40,397 bases of DNA. It comes from Chloroflexota bacterium. Its GTDB lineage: Bacteria; Chloroflexota; Anaerolineae; Anaerolineales; Villigracilaceae. The stretch's first letter is position 1. Each line of letters starts with the position of its first letter. Of the stretch, positions 825 through 34,423 are shown in pieces. The DNA lies in the NCBI GenBank assembly GCA_021787595.1, contig JAJYLQ010000030.1:1-40397 (forward strand), read 5' to 3'. A program made the position numbers and the translations under genes. The notes under the pieces were generated by a model. The model worked only from the letters and a program-made list of their open reading frames with translations. It did no database searches and was not told the DNA's origin.

Positions 825-1511
825 TTACGGTGCCACTGGTTTGCCATTGACTGGCGGAGGCGGCGCATCTGGCGGCTGTTCTAGTGGAATCGTCGGTTGA
901 AAAGTCAGGCTGTCAATCATTTGATTTAGAGTTGCGAGATGACCTTCAAAAAGCGATCCCTTGCCTCCGGTACCAACGATGTAGGCGTAGATTCGGAATA
1001 CTACTCCATCACGTACTGTTTCCAAAGTCATGGAGCGATCCCCGGATATCCCCCCAGAGTCAGTTGCCTGTTTCCAAGAAACGCCGTTGATCGAAACAGC
1101 GGTGCCCTGAAGAGATTGTGAAAGATCAGCCTTTGGATCCACCATGAAACTGATCTTGACAAAACCAGCCGGCAGACCTCCGGGCAAGCTTGCTGGGTTA
1201 TTAAAAGGGGCAACATTTTGCACATGGATTAGGTAACCGTCAGGATGGGCAGTAATGTCCCATCCCTGAGGATATGCGAACGAGAAACGAATCTCTTTGT
1301 CCTTAAGTATGAAGGATTGTTGGTAGGTTTGCCATGCGCCTACCGGGGTTTGCGGCCTTGCAAAATCAGCAGCCCCAAATTGAGCCCAGACGCCACTAAG
1401 CACAATCAAAGGCAAGGCGACTAACACAACAATGACCGATGACGGACGCCAAACCATAAAGGAACGAGAAGGAATACGCGCGCGAGGTTTCATGCATTTT
1501 AGATTCAACAT
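825..1511 (-). CDS. Membrane-anchored exported protein, function unknown (PsbP-like fold possible)
   Basis: 228 residues. The start at 1511 is supported by a CAGGAG ribosome binding site nine bases upstream. A basic N-terminus precedes one hydrophobic segment (about residues 25-45), so the protein is secreted or anchored with its bulk outside. The mature part has the pattern 'IRFSFAYPQGWDITAHPDGYLIHV' split over beta strands, 'GFVKISFMVDP' and a terminal 'LNQMIDSLTFQP', which resembles PsbP/DUF1795-type domains found in many exported proteins. The C-terminus is Pro-rich. It sits between the M23 peptidase gene (33-base gap) and a terminator, so it is probably the last gene of a leftward two-gene operon. 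I do not recognise a specific function. Confidence 0.7.
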   Translation of the reverse strand: MLNLKCMKPRARIPSRSFMVWRPSSVIVVLVALPLIVLSGVWAQFGAADFARPQTPVGAWQTYQQSFILKDKEIRFSFAYPQGWDITAHPDGYLIHVQNVAPFNNPASLPGGLPAGFVKISFMVDPKADLSQSLQGTAVSINGVSWKQATDSGGISGDRSMTLETVRDGVVFRIYAYIVGTGGKGSLFEGHLATLNQMIDSLTFQPTIPLEQPPDAPPPPVNGKPVAP

Positions 1512-1543
1512 ATTTTAATCTCCTGAAAACCTTTACCAGAGTC

Positions 1544-2568
1544 CTAATTCGGCACAAACATTATAGCGTCTGCAGCGATGTACGTTGTGCTCGTTTCACC
1601 GGTATCGTCTCGGAGTTCTACAGTTAGGTAACCGACTCCCCTTTGTCCGGCGTATGTACCTAATAATACCCAATCGTTGTTATTGGCGTTTTGATTAACA
1701 TACTTATTGGTGTACGTAGTACCGGACTTAATTACATAATGGGCGTTTGTTGTAGTGCCATAGTTGTTCGGTACAAACACGTAGACAGCATAGTTGCGAT
1801 TCGAAGGTAAATTAGGTTGCCAGTAAGCCCTGCTATCGACTGTATTGCCATTACTATATGTCCAGTGGGTAAATGCATTGCTCAGGCCACCTCGGTCAAA
1901 TCCATATGCAGCCGTCCACCATGAGCTTACGGTCGAGAATCCGGAGTCTCGGTCATCTATGGTAGGCGTGGTTCCGTCAAAGTAATCATGATTCACTGAG
2001 TCCCCAACATCAAAATACGAGTCGTCGTAGGTTGTCCCGTTGCTCCTCACGCCGTAAATCGGTGTAAAGTGAATGCTATAACCAGAAGTTAGGCCGTTGT
2101 GATACATTTCAAAATGGAGGTGGTTTCCTGAGGAGTTCCCCGTGTTATCCGCATAGCCGATGGGCGAGCCATTCCCCACTACTGCGCCCGTGACAGGAAA
2201 ATAATAGACCAGATGTGCATAACGTGTGTAGTACCAGCCGCCACTGCCATCTGGATGTTGGAGGACAACCTCATAGCCCCAACCAGCACTATTCCAACCA
2301 CTGAAGTATACTGTGCCCGGACCAGCGGCATATATCGTTTCACCATAGTTCATCGCAAAATCAATTCCGCTACCTGGGCTTGGAGGGCTTGTCGAGCAAT
2401 CCTCATGCCAAGAACAAGTGACCGTGTGGGAGCCAATGAAGGGAAGATCTGTGATAGATGGTAAGCAAATACACTGTATAATCCTATACCTAAAGCCAAA
2501 AACAATAAAGTAATAAAAGGGGCCACAATCAGAAACGGAAACTTCAATCGTTTGGCAATTCGCAACAT
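1544..2568 (-). pseudogene. M23 (LytM) peptidase with golvesin-like C-terminal domain, frameshifted
   Basis: Two reading frames join into one protein. Frame one starts at 2568 behind a strong AAAGGAGG site and encodes a signal anchor (MLRIAKRLKFPFLIVAPF and onward). The peptidase frame is open well upstream of its first ATG at 2353 and encodes DLPFIGSHTVTCSW, then SGIDFAMNYGETIYAAGPG, YAHLVYY and NHLHFE, the LytM fold with its HxH motif. It ends in a golvesin/Xly-type carbohydrate- or wall-binding domain (TVDSRAYWQPNLP, IAADAIMFVPN). The two frames must be joined by a one-base change at about 2440-2500. The first zinc-ligand His of the HxxxD motif is Gly here (GSGID), so activity is doubtful even if the frame were restored. 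The golvesin-like domain is intact. Confidence 0.75.
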
Positions 2569-2640
2569 AAAATTATTCCTCCTTTACTATTGGGCTTTGC
2601 TGTTACGTGGCATATGAAAACTCTCTGGTAATCCAATTCC

Positions 2641-2669
2641 ATAATAGAACGAGTTTAGCACCCTGTCAA
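2641..2669 (-). promoter_or_regulatory. Sigma-70-type promoter for the M23 gene operon
   Basis: On the minus strand TTGACA (2664-2669) and TATTAT (2641-2646) are separated by 17 bases, followed about 60 bases later by the AAAGGAGG and ATG of the M23 gene. This is a near-consensus housekeeping promoter. Confidence 0.75.
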
Positions 2670-2686
2670 CTACGGATTCCCGAAGG

Positions 2687-2893
2687 TTATTGTTTCTTGA
2701 GCGCGGAGAGCAATTTTACGATCGCCTGCGCCCGCGAAGAAACTCCCAACTTTTCGTAGATATGAGTTAGATGCTGCTCAATGGCGCGGGTAGAAACGCT
2801 GAGTTGCAAAGCAATCTGGCCATTGCTCATTCCACGAACAAGAAACTGAATCACCTCCAGCTCCCGGGCTGTGAAATGCGGCAGGAAAGACAT
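2687..2893 (-). CDS. LuxR-type helix-turn-helix protein, HTH domain only
   Basis: From Met at 2893 (GGAG ten bases upstream) the product is 68 residues and consists almost entirely of a GerE/LuxR HTH: FTARELEVIQFLVRGMSNGQ, then VSTRAIEQHLTHIYEKLGVS. These are the conserved determinants of the family. No receiver or sensor domain precedes it. The frame is open upstream to 3037, but that extension looks non-protein-like and overlaps the divergent membrane gene. It is either a stand-alone regulator or the surviving C-terminus of a larger one. It lies next to the promoter of the M23 gene. Confidence 0.7.
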   Translation of the reverse strand: MSFLPHFTARELEVIQFLVRGMSNGQIALQLSVSTRAIEQHLTHIYEKLGVSSRAQAIVKLLSALKKQ

Positions 2894-3027
2894 ACCCAGG
2901 CTGCTCCTTTCGGTTACAATCCATCCTACTATCCCAAACGCAGAGTTATCATATACACACGTAGGCTTCAAAACTGGCTTCAATACCTTAAAGAATCTCT
3001 GCAAAGATGCAAATGGTAATAATAAAA

Positions 3028-30968: not shown

Positions 30969-32033
30969 ATGCCAAAAATTGTTCTTCTATCTTCCTCCCC
31001 TGAACTCCTAGCACGCGAAGGCTTGACGGAGACCGTTGCTGTCTGGGAAGACGGCTTGCGCGCGGATACAGGCCGCGGCTCGTTCGAGTGGTGGTATTTC
31101 GACGCACACTTCGACGATCATTCGACCGCGGTCATTGTCTTTGCCACAAAACCTTTGCTCGAACGCAGCGGTCCGCTGAAACCAAATGTGTCGTTGACCA
31201 TTACACGTTCCGATGGAACAAAGATCATGCAGATCCCGATCTTTCCAGCCGATCAATTCAGCGCCGCGAAAGAATCCTGTGACGTGAAAATCGCTTCCAA
31301 CTGGACACGCGGCAATCTGCACCGCTGCGAAGTCCACGCCGAGATGGATGGCATCGCCGCAAACCTGACCTTCACCGGTCTCGTCCCGCCGTGGCGGCCC
31401 GGCGTCGGAAAAGCTTTCTTCGACGGTTTCGACAATTACTTTGCATGGCTTCCCAGCATCCCTTACGGAACCGTCGAAGGCACATTGACCTACGATGGTC
31501 GAACCCGCGAAGTCAAAGGGACAGGCTATCACGATCACAACTGGGGCAACGTCGGCTTGAACGACGTAATGGACCACTGGTATTGGGGACGCGCCCACGT
31601 CGGCGATTACACCTTGATCTATGTTCAACAGATTGCGTCGAAGACCTTTGGTTACACAAGAATGCCCGTCTTCATGCTGGCAAAAGGCAGCGAAATTCTC
31701 ATTGGCGATGGTGGACCGCTGACGATGCAGGCGCGCGACTTCTTCAAACATGCAGGCGGACGCAGCTATCCGCGCGAAGTGGATTTCGATTGGAATTCAG
31801 GGAATGAAACCGCTCACTTGCGCCTCCGCCAGCCGAAGATCATCGAAGCAGCAAGTTTGCTTTTACTTTTACCAAAATGGCAGCAAGTCATTGCAAGACC
31901 ATTCGGCAATCCGTATTATTTCCGCTTCAATGCAGAGCTTGAATTGGAAATCAACTTGAAAAACGTCCAAGCCAAAGAACGCGGCCCGGCGTTGTACGAG
32001 ATTATGATTCTTCAGGGAAAGAAACATCCGTAA
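30969..32033 (+). CDS. CrtC/AttH-like lipocalin-type protein
   Basis: 354 residues. The pair of motifs GSFEWWYFDAHFDDHST (about residue 37) and GYHDHNWGNV (about 190), plus 'MDHWYWGRAHVGDYTLIY', are diagnostic of the double-lipocalin superfamily of carotenoid 1,2-hydratase (CrtC), AttH and related proteins. CrtC hydrates acyclic carotenoids, but many non-photosynthetic members have unknown roles in lipid or terpenoid metabolism. There is no signal peptide. The preceding SDR gene could act on the same lipophilic substrate, which is a guess from adjacency; a MITE-like element separates them. Confidence 0.78.
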   Translation: MPKIVLLSSSPELLAREGLTETVAVWEDGLRADTGRGSFEWWYFDAHFDDHSTAVIVFATKPLLERSGPLKPNVSLTITRSDGTKIMQIPIFPADQFSAAKESCDVKIASNWTRGNLHRCEVHAEMDGIAANLTFTGLVPPWRPGVGKAFFDGFDNYFAWLPSIPYGTVEGTLTYDGRTREVKGTGYHDHNWGNVGLNDVMDHWYWGRAHVGDYTLIYVQQIASKTFGYTRMPVFMLAKGSEILIGDGGPLTMQARDFFKHAGGRSYPREVDFDWNSGNETAHLRLRQPKIIEAASLLLLLPKWQQVIARPFGNPYYFRFNAELELEINLKNVQAKERGPALYEIMILQGKKHP

Positions 32034-32039
32034 AATGTG

Positions 32040-32280
32040 CAGATCAAGCCGCCGCCTGCACTTCGTTCGCTTGCCCTGTGTTTTTCAGGGTCGAGCGTCC
32101 GCGGCGGCGCTTTGCGAGTCGATTCTGCGCCGAGGACGGCGCAGGAAGCAGCCTTACACATGCCGTTGCGAGTGGCGCCAAGTCGAAGATCCCGCACACG
32201 CGGGGGCGCCACGAAGCAATCTCCTGCTGATAACGAGGAGACTGCTTCGGGAAGAACAACCTCGCAGTGACATCCGCTCC
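32040..32280. repeat. GC-rich repeat patchwork before the arsenic cassette
   Basis: This stretch is several short palindromes and repeat fragments (TGGCGCCAAGTCG, GAAGCAATCTCC/GGAGACTGCTTC, GGTCGAGCGTCC). I see no gene. It marks the left boundary of the ars genes. Confidence 0.5.
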
Positions 32281-32288
32281 GATCCCTC

Positions 32289-32316
32289 TTGACAAATAGA
32301 CAAATATCTATATAAT
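32289..32316 (+). promoter_or_regulatory. arsR promoter with operator 1
   Basis: TTGACA (32289-32294), 16 bases, TATAAT (32311-32316). The operator ATAGACAAATATCTATATAA (32296-32315) fills the spacer and -10; its symmetric core is ATAGA-N6-TCTAT. Binding of ArsR there would block polymerase. Confidence 0.8.
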
Positions 32317-32336
32317 ACAAATCGAAGGTTATCAAT

Positions 32337-32648
32337 ATGAAATTCGATCCGGTCCTGTTCGCCAAAGCCATCGCCGACGAGACCCGCCAGAAGATCATGA
32401 ACATCTGCTGCTGCGAGTCGCTCTCAGTCAGTGAGATCGTCGAAAAGCTGGACGTCTCACAGCCCACCGTCTCGCATCATCTTGCCATTCTGCGCGAAGC
32501 AGATTTGGTTACCGTCCGCGAAGAAGGCAAACAAACTTTTTACTCGCTCAACCAGGAACGCGTCTCGTTTTGCTGCGGGCAATTGATGATCAAATTTGCG
32601 CCCGAAACGAAGACGACCGAAAAGCTCGTAAAAACCATATCCAGCTAA
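32337..32648 (+). CDS. arsR: ArsR/SmtB-family As(III)-responsive repressor
   Basis: 103 residues. The winged-helix core reads SVSEIVEKLDVSQPTVSHHL and AILREADLVTVREEGKQTFY. Three adjacent cysteines (Cys24-26 in MNICCCESL) and a further pair (Cys79-80, SFCCGQL) are placed where ArsR variants bind trivalent arsenic. The CCC run before the HTH is distinct from the ELCVCDL site of the plasmid R773 protein but similar to other As-sensing ArsRs. The gene has its own promoter/operator and is followed by a terminator and arsM. Assignment to arsenic rather than another metalloid comes from the arsM neighbour. Confidence 0.88.
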   Translation: MKFDPVLFAKAIADETRQKIMNICCCESLSVSEIVEKLDVSQPTVSHHLAILREADLVTVREEGKQTFYSLNQERVSFCCGQLMIKFAPETKTTEKLVKTISS

Positions 32649-32654
32649 AGATCG

Positions 32655-32686
32655 GGATGCAGTGGATCCCTGCATCCTTTCTTTTT
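32655..32686 (+). terminator. Intrinsic terminator between arsR and arsM
   Basis: GGATGCAG and CTGCATCC pair around seven bases, followed by TTTCTTTTT. It should reduce read-through from arsR into arsM. Confidence 0.75.
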
Positions 32687-32696
32687 GCCAAAACGC

Positions 32697-32716
32697 ATAG
32701 ACAATCATCTATATAA
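32697..32716 (+). promoter_or_regulatory. ArsR operator 2, before arsM
   Basis: ATAGACAATCATCTATATAA matches operator 1 at 18 of 20 positions, with the same ATAGA-N6-TCTAT core. It lies directly before the AGGAG and ATG of arsM. A -10-like TATAAG is present but no good -35 at the right distance, so a separate arsM promoter is possible but not clear. Confidence 0.75.
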
Positions 32717-32726
32717 GGAGATCCAA

Positions 32727-33554
32727 ATGACCCAAAATTCCGATGCCATTCACGAGATCGTTCGTGAGCATTATGCGGAACGGATCAAGAACTCCGCTTC
32801 CTGCTGCGGACGCTTCGACACGCTCAACGCGACGCCTGATAGCGGCTCCACCGCCGAGGGCAAACTCTACCCGGCAGATTTGCTTGCCACCCTCTCCGAA
32901 GGCGAGTCAGCCGTCAGCTATGGATGCGGCGACCCGATCACGCTCGCCTCCTTGCAGCCCGGACAGATCGTGCTCGATCTCGGTTCGGGCGCGGGACTCG
33001 ATTGTTTCTTCGCCGCGAAAAAAGTCGGCGCGGCGGGACACGTGATCGGCGTGGACATGACTCCCGAAATGATAGACCGCGCCCGGTCCAGCGCGAAGCG
33101 GATGAATCTCGATAACGTGGAATTCCGTCAGGGTTATCTCGAGGATTTGCCGGTGCAAGCCAACAGCGTGGACGTCATCATTTCAAACTGCGTCATCAAT
33201 CTCGCACCCGATAAATCCAAAATCTTCAGCGAAGCGTTTCGCGTGTTGAAGGCTGGCGGCAAACTTGCGGTGTCCGATATCGTCACCGATGGGCCGCTGC
33301 CTGATGCGATCAAGAAAAGTCTCAGCGCGTGGGCTGGCTGTATCGCCGGCGCGGTCGAAGCCGATGACTACATTGGCATGATGAAGGCAGTGGGCTTCAC
33401 GGATATTTCCATCACGCCTGTTTACTTCGATCAGGAGGATGTTGACTCGGCGCTCGCCGACATGAAAGACTCAATTGACCTCACAACCTTTTCGGGTGAG
33501 AAAGTATACAAGTCCGTTTTCAGCGCAAAGATCACAGCATATAAACCATCATGA
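32727..33554 (+). CDS. arsM: Arsenite S-adenosylmethionine methyltransferase
   Basis: 275 residues from ATG 32727 (AGGAG upstream). ArsM methylates As(III), using SAM and thiols. The SAM fold is clear: 'GDPITLASLQPGQIVLDLGSGAGLDC' and 'GHVIGVDMTPEMIDRARSSA'. The arsenic-binding cysteines are present: Cys26-Cys27 in NSASCCGRF, the conserved Cys in ISNCVINLAPDKSK, and the Cys in SAWAGCIAGAVE. The context, arsR before it and a Cys-rich peptide after it, supports arsenic detoxification. The stop overlaps an ATG (ATGA), which would start a 13-codon frame leading to the peptide gene. Confidence 0.9.
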   Translation: MTQNSDAIHEIVREHYAERIKNSASCCGRFDTLNATPDSGSTAEGKLYPADLLATLSEGESAVSYGCGDPITLASLQPGQIVLDLGSGAGLDCFFAAKKVGAAGHVIGVDMTPEMIDRARSSAKRMNLDNVEFRQGYLEDLPVQANSVDVIISNCVINLAPDKSKIFSEAFRVLKAGGKLAVSDIVTDGPLPDAIKKSLSAWAGCIAGAVEADDYIGMMKAVGFTDISITPVYFDQEDVDSALADMKDSIDLTTFSGEKVYKSVFSAKITAYKPS

Positions 33555-33588
33555 TGGAATTTATTGTTTGGAAAGGAGGTGAGAAGCT

Positions 33589-33663
33589 ATGACTGATTTA
33601 CCGGTGCTTTCAAGTTGCGATTGCGACTGCAGCGATGGTTGTTGCGGCGGCGGTTGCTGCTAG
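33589..33663 (+). CDS. Very small Cys-rich peptide, downstream of arsM
   Basis: A 24-residue ORF starting MTDLPVLSS, then cysteines at 10, 12, 14, 18, 19, 23 and 24, spaced by Asp, Ser and Gly (CDCDCSDG, then CCGGGCC). Seven of 24 residues are Cys, with no other aromatic or basic residues. GAAAGGAGGTGAG, an almost perfect anti-16S match, lies seven bases upstream. A strong terminator follows 22 bases after the stop, so the ORF lies inside the arsM transcript. The arrangement suggests a metallothionein-like chelator or thiol partner for arsenic; a RiPP precursor is an alternative, although no maturation enzyme is adjacent. I know no named family for it. Confidence 0.7.
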   Translation: MTDLPVLSSCDCDCSDGCCGGGCC

Positions 33664-33684
33664 AAAGATGAGACGCAGAAAGTT

Positions 33685-33717
33685 TTCGACGGCAGTCAGA
33701 CTGCCGTCGAACTTTTT
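33685..33717 (+). terminator. Intrinsic terminator of the arsM operon
   Basis: TTCGACGGCAGT and ACTGCCGTCGAA, a perfect 12-pair stem with loop CAG, followed by CTTTTTAA. Confidence 0.9.
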
Positions 33718-33741
33718 AACCAGACTATTAGCTTCTTTCCA

Positions 33742-33787
33742 TTGACAGTGCGATAGAACAGGAGTAAAAACATACCGACTGGTCGGT
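33742..33787 (+). promoter_or_regulatory. Promoter and TetR-type operator
   Basis: TTGACA (33742-33747), 17 bases, TAAAAA (33765-33770). Directly after comes ACCGACTGGTCGGT (33774-33787), a near-perfect palindrome of the ACCGAC-type seen at many TetR/AcrR promoters. It is well placed for autorepression by the gene at 33839. Confidence 0.75.
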
Positions 33788-33803
33788 TTTTAGCCCTCAC
33801 CCC

Positions 33804-33826
33804 CCCTCTCCCATTTTGGGAGAGGG
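33804..33826. repeat. CCCTCTCCC/GGGAGAGGG hairpin abutting a Shine-Dalgarno
   Basis: The arms 33804-33812 and 33818-33826 pair perfectly; AGAGGAG follows at once and ATG is at 33839. The repeat thus forms the leader of the TetR-type gene. Confidence 0.8.
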
Positions 33827-33838
33827 AGAGGAGATGAA

Positions 33839-34423
33839 ATGCAGCAGCGCAGTGAAGAGACACGTTCGAAGATCATCGAATCAGCGATCAAGCTATTCTC
33901 CAGCCGCGGGTTCAACGCCGCTAGCGTGGACGATATTTGTTCGGATGCGGGAATCAGCAAAGGCGCGTTCTATCACCACTTTGAAAGCAAGCAGGCGCTT
34001 TTCCTGGCGCTGCTCGATGGCTGGCTGCAAACCATTGACAATGCCGTCGAAGCCTCGAAGGATAAAACCGCGCCCGAAACGTTCATGCAAATGACGGAAG
34101 CGTTTCCGTACATCTTTGCGTCAGCCGGCAACCATCTTCCGATGTTCATGGAATTCTGGCTGCAGGCCAGCCGGGATGAAAAAATCTGGCAAGCCGCCAT
34201 CGCGCCATATCGCCGCTATCAAAAGTATTTCGCGGCGCTCATCCAGAAAGGCATTGACGAAGGTTCGTTCGTCGAAGTGAATCCTGACATCGCCGCGCGC
34301 CTGATCGTCTCGACCGCGATGGGATTGCTGCTGCAAAGTCTGCTCGACCCGAAAGGCGCAAAATGGGAAAAGGTGGCGCGTGAAAGCACAACGTTGGTCG
34401 TGAACGGTTTGATAAGGAAATGA
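33839..34423 (+). CDS. TetR/AcrR-family regulator
   Basis: 194 residues: SEETRSKIIESAIKLFSSRG followed by FNAASVDDICSDAGISKGAF and YHHFESKQALFLALLDGWLQ, a textbook TetR DNA-binding domain with the YxHF hinge. The C-terminal domain is helical with an aromatic patch (PMFMEFWLQASRDEKIWQ). The operator and promoter lie directly upstream. An epimerase-like SDR gene begins ten bases after the stop with a GAGG site between, so they form an operon. The ligand is unknown. Confidence 0.9.
   Translation: MQQRSEETRSKIIESAIKLFSSRGFNAASVDDICSDAGISKGAFYHHFESKQALFLALLDGWLQTIDNAVEASKDKTAPETFMQMTEAFPYIFASAGNHLPMFMEFWLQASRDEKIWQAAIAPYRRYQKYFAALIQKGIDEGSFVEVNPDIAARLIVSTAMGLLLQSLLDPKGAKWEKVARESTTLVVNGLIRK

Follow-up and report, generated by a model that had tools for sequence, protein, structure and literature searches.

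INTRODUCTION

Bacterial arsenic resistance is usually presented in terms of sensing, reduction, methylation and efflux. The arsenic metallochaperone ArsD, encoded beside arsA and serving ArsA, has a folded structure, about 120 amino acids and paired cysteines. The bacterial metallothioneins SmtA/BmtA and MymT are about twice as long as the 24-residue peptide studied here, the Fungi-I metallothioneins are about 25 residues long, and polycysteine short ORFs of mycobacteria have reportedly been described by Canestrari et al. in 2020. Two small copper metallothioneins of fungi have seven cysteines (PMC13107397).

Here we analyzed a window of 40 397 nucleotides (the term denoting the whole stretch of DNA), in which a preliminary description had reported an arsR-arsM cassette ending in a tiny ORF with seven cysteine codons. 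A literature search, with subscription journals thinly covered, gave no description of such a peptide by title or abstract; the family to which it belongs has no earlier description that we found, and is absent from the family libraries searched.

RESULTS

Organization of the locus

The genes and sites of the locus were as follows.

32289–32316, + strand: promoter-like site of arsR, TTGACA-16-TATAAT, with 12 of 12 consensus positions matched
32296–32311, + strand: putative ArsR operator 1, ATAGACAAATATCTAT, within the spacer of the arsR promoter (pattern ATAGANNNNNNTCTAT)
32337–32648, + strand: arsR, ArsR/SmtB repressor of 103 amino acids (NF033788, 85.7 bits at a cut-off of 55; PF01022)
32654–32678, + strand: terminator-like site 3′ of arsR, a 9-bp stem and then a T run
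32697–32712, + strand: putative ArsR operator 2, ATAGACAATCATCTAT, ahead of arsM (pattern ATAGANNNNNNTCTAT/ATAGACAANNNTCTAT)
32727–33554, + strand: arsM, arsenite methyltransferase of 275 amino acids without a cysteine tail (NF008823, 304.6 bits at a cut-off of 263)
33571–33583, + strand: ribosome binding site GAAAGGAGGTGAG of the peptide gene, read from the sequence
33589–33663, + strand: gene of the seven-cysteine peptide of 24 amino acids, MTDLPVLSSCDCDCSDGCCGGGCC, assigned from sequence, family and selection
33685–33721, + strand: terminator-like site 3′ of the peptide gene, a 12-bp stem (33685–33711), then CTTTTT, with a T run

The tiny ORF could be read directly as previously described, with 24 residues and cysteines at positions 10, 12, 14, 18, 19, 23 and 24; its ATG at 33589 is located 34 nt after the arsM stop codon and is preceded by the strong ribosome binding site that had been reported. 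The terminator said to enclose the ORF was likewise confirmed as a terminator-like site, and is also present in the two closest relatives of the window. The arsM gene starts with an ATG at 32727, its stop codon ends at 33554, and its product has both the profile match and the cysteine motifs of a PRK11873-type arsenite methyltransferase; among 68 ArsM relatives these motifs were found as YGCG in 64, SNCVIN in 68 and GC[IV]AGA in 67. In ArsR, Cys25, 26, 79 and 80 were invariant in 64 of 64 relatives. The solved structures nearest to it are by name not arsenic sensors and include cadmium and zinc sensors, and CmtR was among the ArsR/SmtB-type profile matches below cut-off. Arsenite sensing by this ArsR is putative, being suggested by the company of arsM and by the ArsR cysteines.

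Two copies of the pattern ATAGANNNNNNTCTAT are present in the window, one ahead of arsR and the other ahead of arsM, versus 0.02 occurrences expected, and ATAGACAANNNTCTAT has only two sites in the whole 4.08-Mb genome, both at this locus, with one site for a backward control pattern. A slightly relaxed operator pattern had a match upstream of arsR in 59 of 67 rows, and 65 of 67 had one in the gap that separates arsR from arsM. Because arsR has a terminator-like site of its own behind it and a second operator-like repeat stands ahead of arsM, the locus looks like two ArsR-controlled units, arsR and arsM-peptide, rather than one. An Rfam scan over positions 32000–34000 gave four matches, all under the gathering scores. 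We also observed a palindrome, ACCGACTGGTCGGT, at 33774–33787 ahead of a TetR-family gene (33839–34423), which recurs in loci L002 and L005 and is a possible operator candidate.

The peptide ORF as a coding gene

When the window was compared with its two nearest relatives, the frame, the SD sequence, the cysteine pattern and the terminator were all found to be kept. Over codons 2–22 of this triple, the synonymous versus non-synonymous differences per number of sites were 8/14.2 versus 6/48.8, 6/13.7 versus 4/49.3 and 5/14.5 versus 4/48.5 for the three pairs. Seventeen further peptide pairs, picked at protein identities of at least 70% and thereby biased downwards in pN/pS, which the window triple was not, gave pN/pS values of 0.12–0.52 in 14 cases, with two pairs identical in protein and one lacking synonymous change. 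Both cysteine codons are used in the family (TGC 148 times, TGT 81 times), and GAAAGG stands ahead of all 33 distinct family gene sequences. A filter for small cysteine-rich ORFs (ATG start, 15–45 amino acids, at least five Cys, GGAG in the SD window) was passed by 31 distinct ORFs on both strands of 1.085 Mb of loci, redundant and chosen around arsM, and 30 of these 31 were members of this family. The synonymous excess, the use of both cysteine codons and the filter result together rule out a chance ORF. With its frame, ribosome binding site and synonymous excess, the peptide ORF is therefore, as judged from sequence, a conserved coding gene, and its product is probably translated.

Make-up, position and distribution of the peptide family

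The family comprises 33 distinct gene sequences encoding 31 distinct peptides of 23–29 amino acids, having seven cysteines in 25 cases, six in 4 and eight in 2. The N-terminus reads M-x(1-2)-L-x-[VIM] in 31 of 31 distinct peptides and the end is CC in 30 of 31. Over the 780 residues of these peptides, cysteine makes up 27.6%, Asp and Glu together number 156 versus 2 for Lys, Arg and His, lysine is absent and aromatic residues number five, which is the make-up of metallothioneins (small, cysteine-rich and with few aromatics).

ArsM-led searches yielded 110 loci with five distinct related ORFs downstream of arsM, that of the window included, while scanning of whole loci revealed that most relatives having the peptide place its gene between arsR and arsM. 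Among the 33 gene sequences, 26 are thus positioned (between-type), 5 are downstream of arsM (window type) and 2 are without arsM; L015/L091, a weak candidate among the five ORFs first found downstream, was excluded from the 33. In the between-type loci L033 and L066, additional genes are also found inside the arsR-arsM interval, and in L066 (G509, 1170–3001) flavodoxin-like and cytochrome c-like genes, named by eye, lie between peptide and arsM. When counting only distinct loci found through ArsM alone, with arsR present and ArsM at an identity of at least 60%, 29 of 65 carried the peptide gene (25 between, 4 downstream) and 36 did not. The conservation downstream of related arsM genes that had been suggested as a check was hence seen, albeit thinly, at 4 of 65 loci, and that check alone would miss 25 of 65 because the gene there lies between arsR and arsM. 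With ArsM below 60% identity, a family member was nearby in 0 of 94 cases.

When the small ORFs found in 136 loci were scored with a profile of 28 members, the members, which were those that built the profile, reached at least 26 bits, others stayed below 9 and L015/L091 had 10; three outsiders to it scored 21.7 (L141), 33.6 (L143) and 40.9 bits (L163). The top non-member score in later loci, 11.4 bits, was that of an ArsM cysteine tail (L216). Every placeable genome of the G series with a member belongs to the same family as the window genome, direct peptide searches beyond that family being insensitive. Run over 396 genomes of the class, the 28-row profile found matches in 6 genomes, all from a single genus, but not in the window; the first look of this search has little sensitivity for a query of such length, and absence from it means little. 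With smaller sub-profiles, matches at E ≤ 1 were obtained in 18 and 33 of 152 family genomes, several of them by chance. No family member was found in the other-phylum ArsM loci among a set of 80 loci, plasmids searched with one family member gave no match, and six pattern stretches in viral contigs included no relative of the peptide.

A quick tree built from 103 ArsM sequences requires 18 changes of the between-type label, against a mean of 23.3 after shuffling, and well-supported branches force five or more of these changes, suggesting that the peptide gene has repeatedly been lost, gained or moved. Taken together with the patchy occurrence (29 of 65 loci), these 18 changes argue that the gene is dispensable. 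We conclude that, by these comparisons, the peptides form a conserved family of small proteins found in the ArsR regulons of one lineage of Anaerolineae.

Operator-like repeats and small ORFs in related loci

In 23 of 26 between-type sequences an operator-like repeat ends 16–19 nt before the peptide ATG, the remaining three having none at that spacing, and in 21 of 25 between-type gaps a further operator-like copy is found between peptide and arsM; the between-type peptide would then be a separate ArsR-controlled unit. Most between-type loci have a CTCTG...CAGAG hairpin 3′ of the peptide, with a T run some 15 nt further on as judged by eye, but a strict terminator scan accepted this site in 4 of 25 loci, and the hairpin may be other than a plain terminator.

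Other small ORFs were also seen in arsR-arsM gaps. Those of L009, L075, L085 and L124, in which the seven-cysteine peptide was not found, contain a different tiny ORF of 28–30 amino acids having a hydrophobic LFLLTRG-like stretch followed by C-x-x-C-x-C. A third small ORF, of 43 amino acids, hydrophobic at its N-terminus and containing the stretch RSTE-x-VL-x-IRQ, is present in L041, L069 and L045, in the latter together with the seven-cysteine peptide. ArsM relatives with one in-frame TGA were noted in G008, G028, G039 and G059; these are possibly selenoproteins like those of the NCBIfam ArsM selenoprotein models.

Searches of family libraries

Pfam, NCBIfam and the PDB gave no credible match for the peptide, with none in the PDB at E ≤ 10. 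When 28 members were scanned, NCBIfam gave three single matches at E 0.63–3.4 and Pfam gave Conotoxin_I2 only, with four members and a best E of 0.045, most likely due to cysteine composition. Membership in a known Pfam or NCBIfam family, including the metallothionein families, was rejected as there was no profile match, and identity with ArsD could be dismissed on the same ground together with the length of 24 residues.

Peptide genes without arsM

Two genomes, G500 (96% complete) and G006 (95% complete), have arsR directly before the peptide gene and gave no ArsM match at E ≤ 1e-15. For both of them to be missing arsM through incompleteness is unlikely, although either alone could. The peptide is consequently not an obligatory partner of ArsM, and these loci speak for a stand-alone buffer. 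In G006 a relaxed copy of the operator-like repeat is found at 19 nt, and in G500 none was found by either pattern. Neither genome had Acr3 by TIGR00832, which was also the case for the arsM-carrying G002 and G388.

With regards to transport genes, the window genome contains only an Acr3-matching fragment (G000:C3:16304-16474; L238, L259) that covers profile positions 271–327 and scores below cut-off, and a full Acr3 match is found in its congener G004. The G531/L033 cluster holds a permease resembling ArsP, a relative of which is found in L149.

DISCUSSION

The explanation that we favor, with a probability of roughly 0.57, is that the peptide is an ArsR-controlled and arsenic-induced As(III)-thiolate buffer, i.e. 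a mini-metallothionein about 25 residues long. On binding arsenite, ArsR would release the ATAGACAAnnnTCTAT sites, and a joint transcript of arsM and the peptide gene, ending at the terminator, would be made in the window. The peptide, which is acidic and lacks lysine, would hold As(III) in three-thiolate sites formed by the CC, CxC and CxxxC groups, and would thereby shield cellular thiols from the bound As(III) until methylation or export. In most relatives the peptide would be made under its own operator-like repeat between arsR and arsM, and in two genomes after arsR, with no arsM found. That the gene is coding and conserved, where it is positioned, the operator-like repeats, the constancy of the cysteines and the occurrence without arsM are read from the DNA itself; induction by arsenite, As(III) as the ligand and the buffering role are what these features suggest. 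The fixed cysteine number, coding selection, the ArsR link, occurrence without ArsM and the ArsP-like permease in the G531/L033 cluster argue for the buffer, and against it stand the patchiness of the gene and the lack of the expected repeat in 3 of 26 between-type sequences and in G500. Of the three ideas in the preliminary description, a thiol chelator for As(III) is hereby the best supported, with As(III) binding still putative.

The second of these ideas, a donor of arsenic to ArsM, is less likely as an exclusive role in view of G006 and G500, which gave no ArsM match, but is kept conceivable by similar cysteine tails on some ArsM elsewhere in Chloroflexota. In its extended form, the peptide would be a detached ArsM tail, serving ArsM in trans as an As(III) carrier or thiol co-substrate as a cysteine tail may do in cis, which we regard as unlikely. 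Tails with at least two Cys in the last 15 residues were found in 10 of 94 distinct ArsM below 60% identity, and an additional fetch, directed in part at tailed families, brought the count to 18 of 114, with 0 of 71 in the clade having the separate peptide. The L216 tail holds SDGCCGGGCC, as does the window peptide, and the L244 tail reads RELPVASAGGCCGGGCGCNA. An LPV-like motif precedes the cysteines in 6 of 18 tails, versus a mean of 0.78 in Cys-fixed shuffles of which 0 of 2000 reached 6, a test that overstates the motif because it was picked after the tails had been viewed, the aimed fetch supplied four of the six cases and the tails are mutually related. The profile scores of the tails were weak, at best 11.3 bits, with 8 of 18 beating at least 95 of 100 Cys-fixed shuffles and 10 of 18 not doing so. 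A tailed ArsM and a separate 19-residue, nine-cysteine peptide 29 nt downstream coexist in G558 (L203), but two genomes have peptide and arsR with no arsM match, and 36 of 65 arsR-arsM loci in the clade have neither tail nor peptide. The tails are thus a lead, which would fit a peptide that can be either fused or free. The nine-cysteine peptide of L203, MDCTCPCCDGCNCDPTCCS, has a strong SD sequence and looks independent, with the upstream ArsM ending in SDGCGCSSSCCR; three relatives of that family, L239–L241, have tails, and no ORF of the nine-cysteine type was found in them.

Peptides of this shape could equally bind Cu(I), Zn or Cd, and a chelator for such another soft metal inside an ArsR/SmtB-type regulon would agree with the many metals covered by ArsR/SmtB sensors, as exemplified by CmtR below cut-off and the solved cadmium and zinc sensors, as well as with the about six Cu(I) bound by seven-cysteine fungal metallothioneins according to PMC13107397. 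The peptide gene is accompanied by arsM in 31 of 33 distinct sequences, found in searches that were largely ArsM-led, which renders this rather improbable. Far less credible is a cysteine-responsive leader peptide attenuating arsM, in the manner of mycobacterial polycysteine short ORFs. The between-type ORF does precede arsM, mostly with a hairpin and T run following (4 of 25 accepted by the strict scan), but the ORF of the window comes after arsM and before a terminator-like site, nothing directly follows the peptide to be attenuated in the arsM-less loci, 21 of 25 between-type gaps have an operator-like repeat between the ORF and arsM, and N-terminal residues are conserved beyond the cysteine codons. 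We give equally little credence to a precursor of a ribosomally made and modified peptide, the last of the three ideas, which gained no support. The short N-terminus (M-NELPV), which is conserved and followed by a Cys/Gly/acidic core, does resemble a leader with its core, yet this N-terminus is of about 10 residues and no modifying or maturation enzyme was recognized in the few neighborhoods read (six window proteins by profile; L033, L066 and L174–L176 by eye).

If the As(III)-thiolate buffer is real, an encoded sequestering peptide would add another tool to those usual in bacterial arsenic resistance, and its 24 residues, a directly testable candidate, would offer a short sequence of natural origin with which to capture or sense arsenic. 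It would also hint at the purpose of the cysteine tails on some ArsM. A wider interpretation, which we hold to be doubtful although conceivable, is that of an undescribed class of bacterial mini-metallothioneins for arsenic, able to form a two-gene defense unit with ArsR, with or without methylation, and having at times been joined to ArsM as a tail and at times freed from it.

In comparison with known systems, ArsD shares with the peptide vicinal cysteines and the setting of an ars operon, along with As(III), which for the peptide is a putative ligand. The C-terminal cysteine tails of ArsM in other Chloroflexota are alike in their CC- and Gly-rich end and, in 6 of 18, the LPV-like stretch, but are fused to ArsM without a separate start codon. 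The mycobacterial polycysteine short ORFs are, as cited in PMC9094748, similarly tiny cysteine-rich ORFs beside a regulated gene; they are there described as leaderless attenuators of the next gene, whereas the family peptides have a strong SD sequence and that of the window is the last before a terminator. The bacterial metallothioneins SmtA/BmtA and MymT resemble the proposed peptide buffer as cysteine-rich metal buffers under a metal sensor. The Fungi-I metallothioneins of Neurospora crassa and Agaricus bisporus are, as described in PMC13107397, small metal-thiolate ligands with seven cysteines, as the peptide would be, but they are fungal and bind copper, whereas the window peptide belongs to an ArsR regulon and is acidic, Lys-free and ends in CC.
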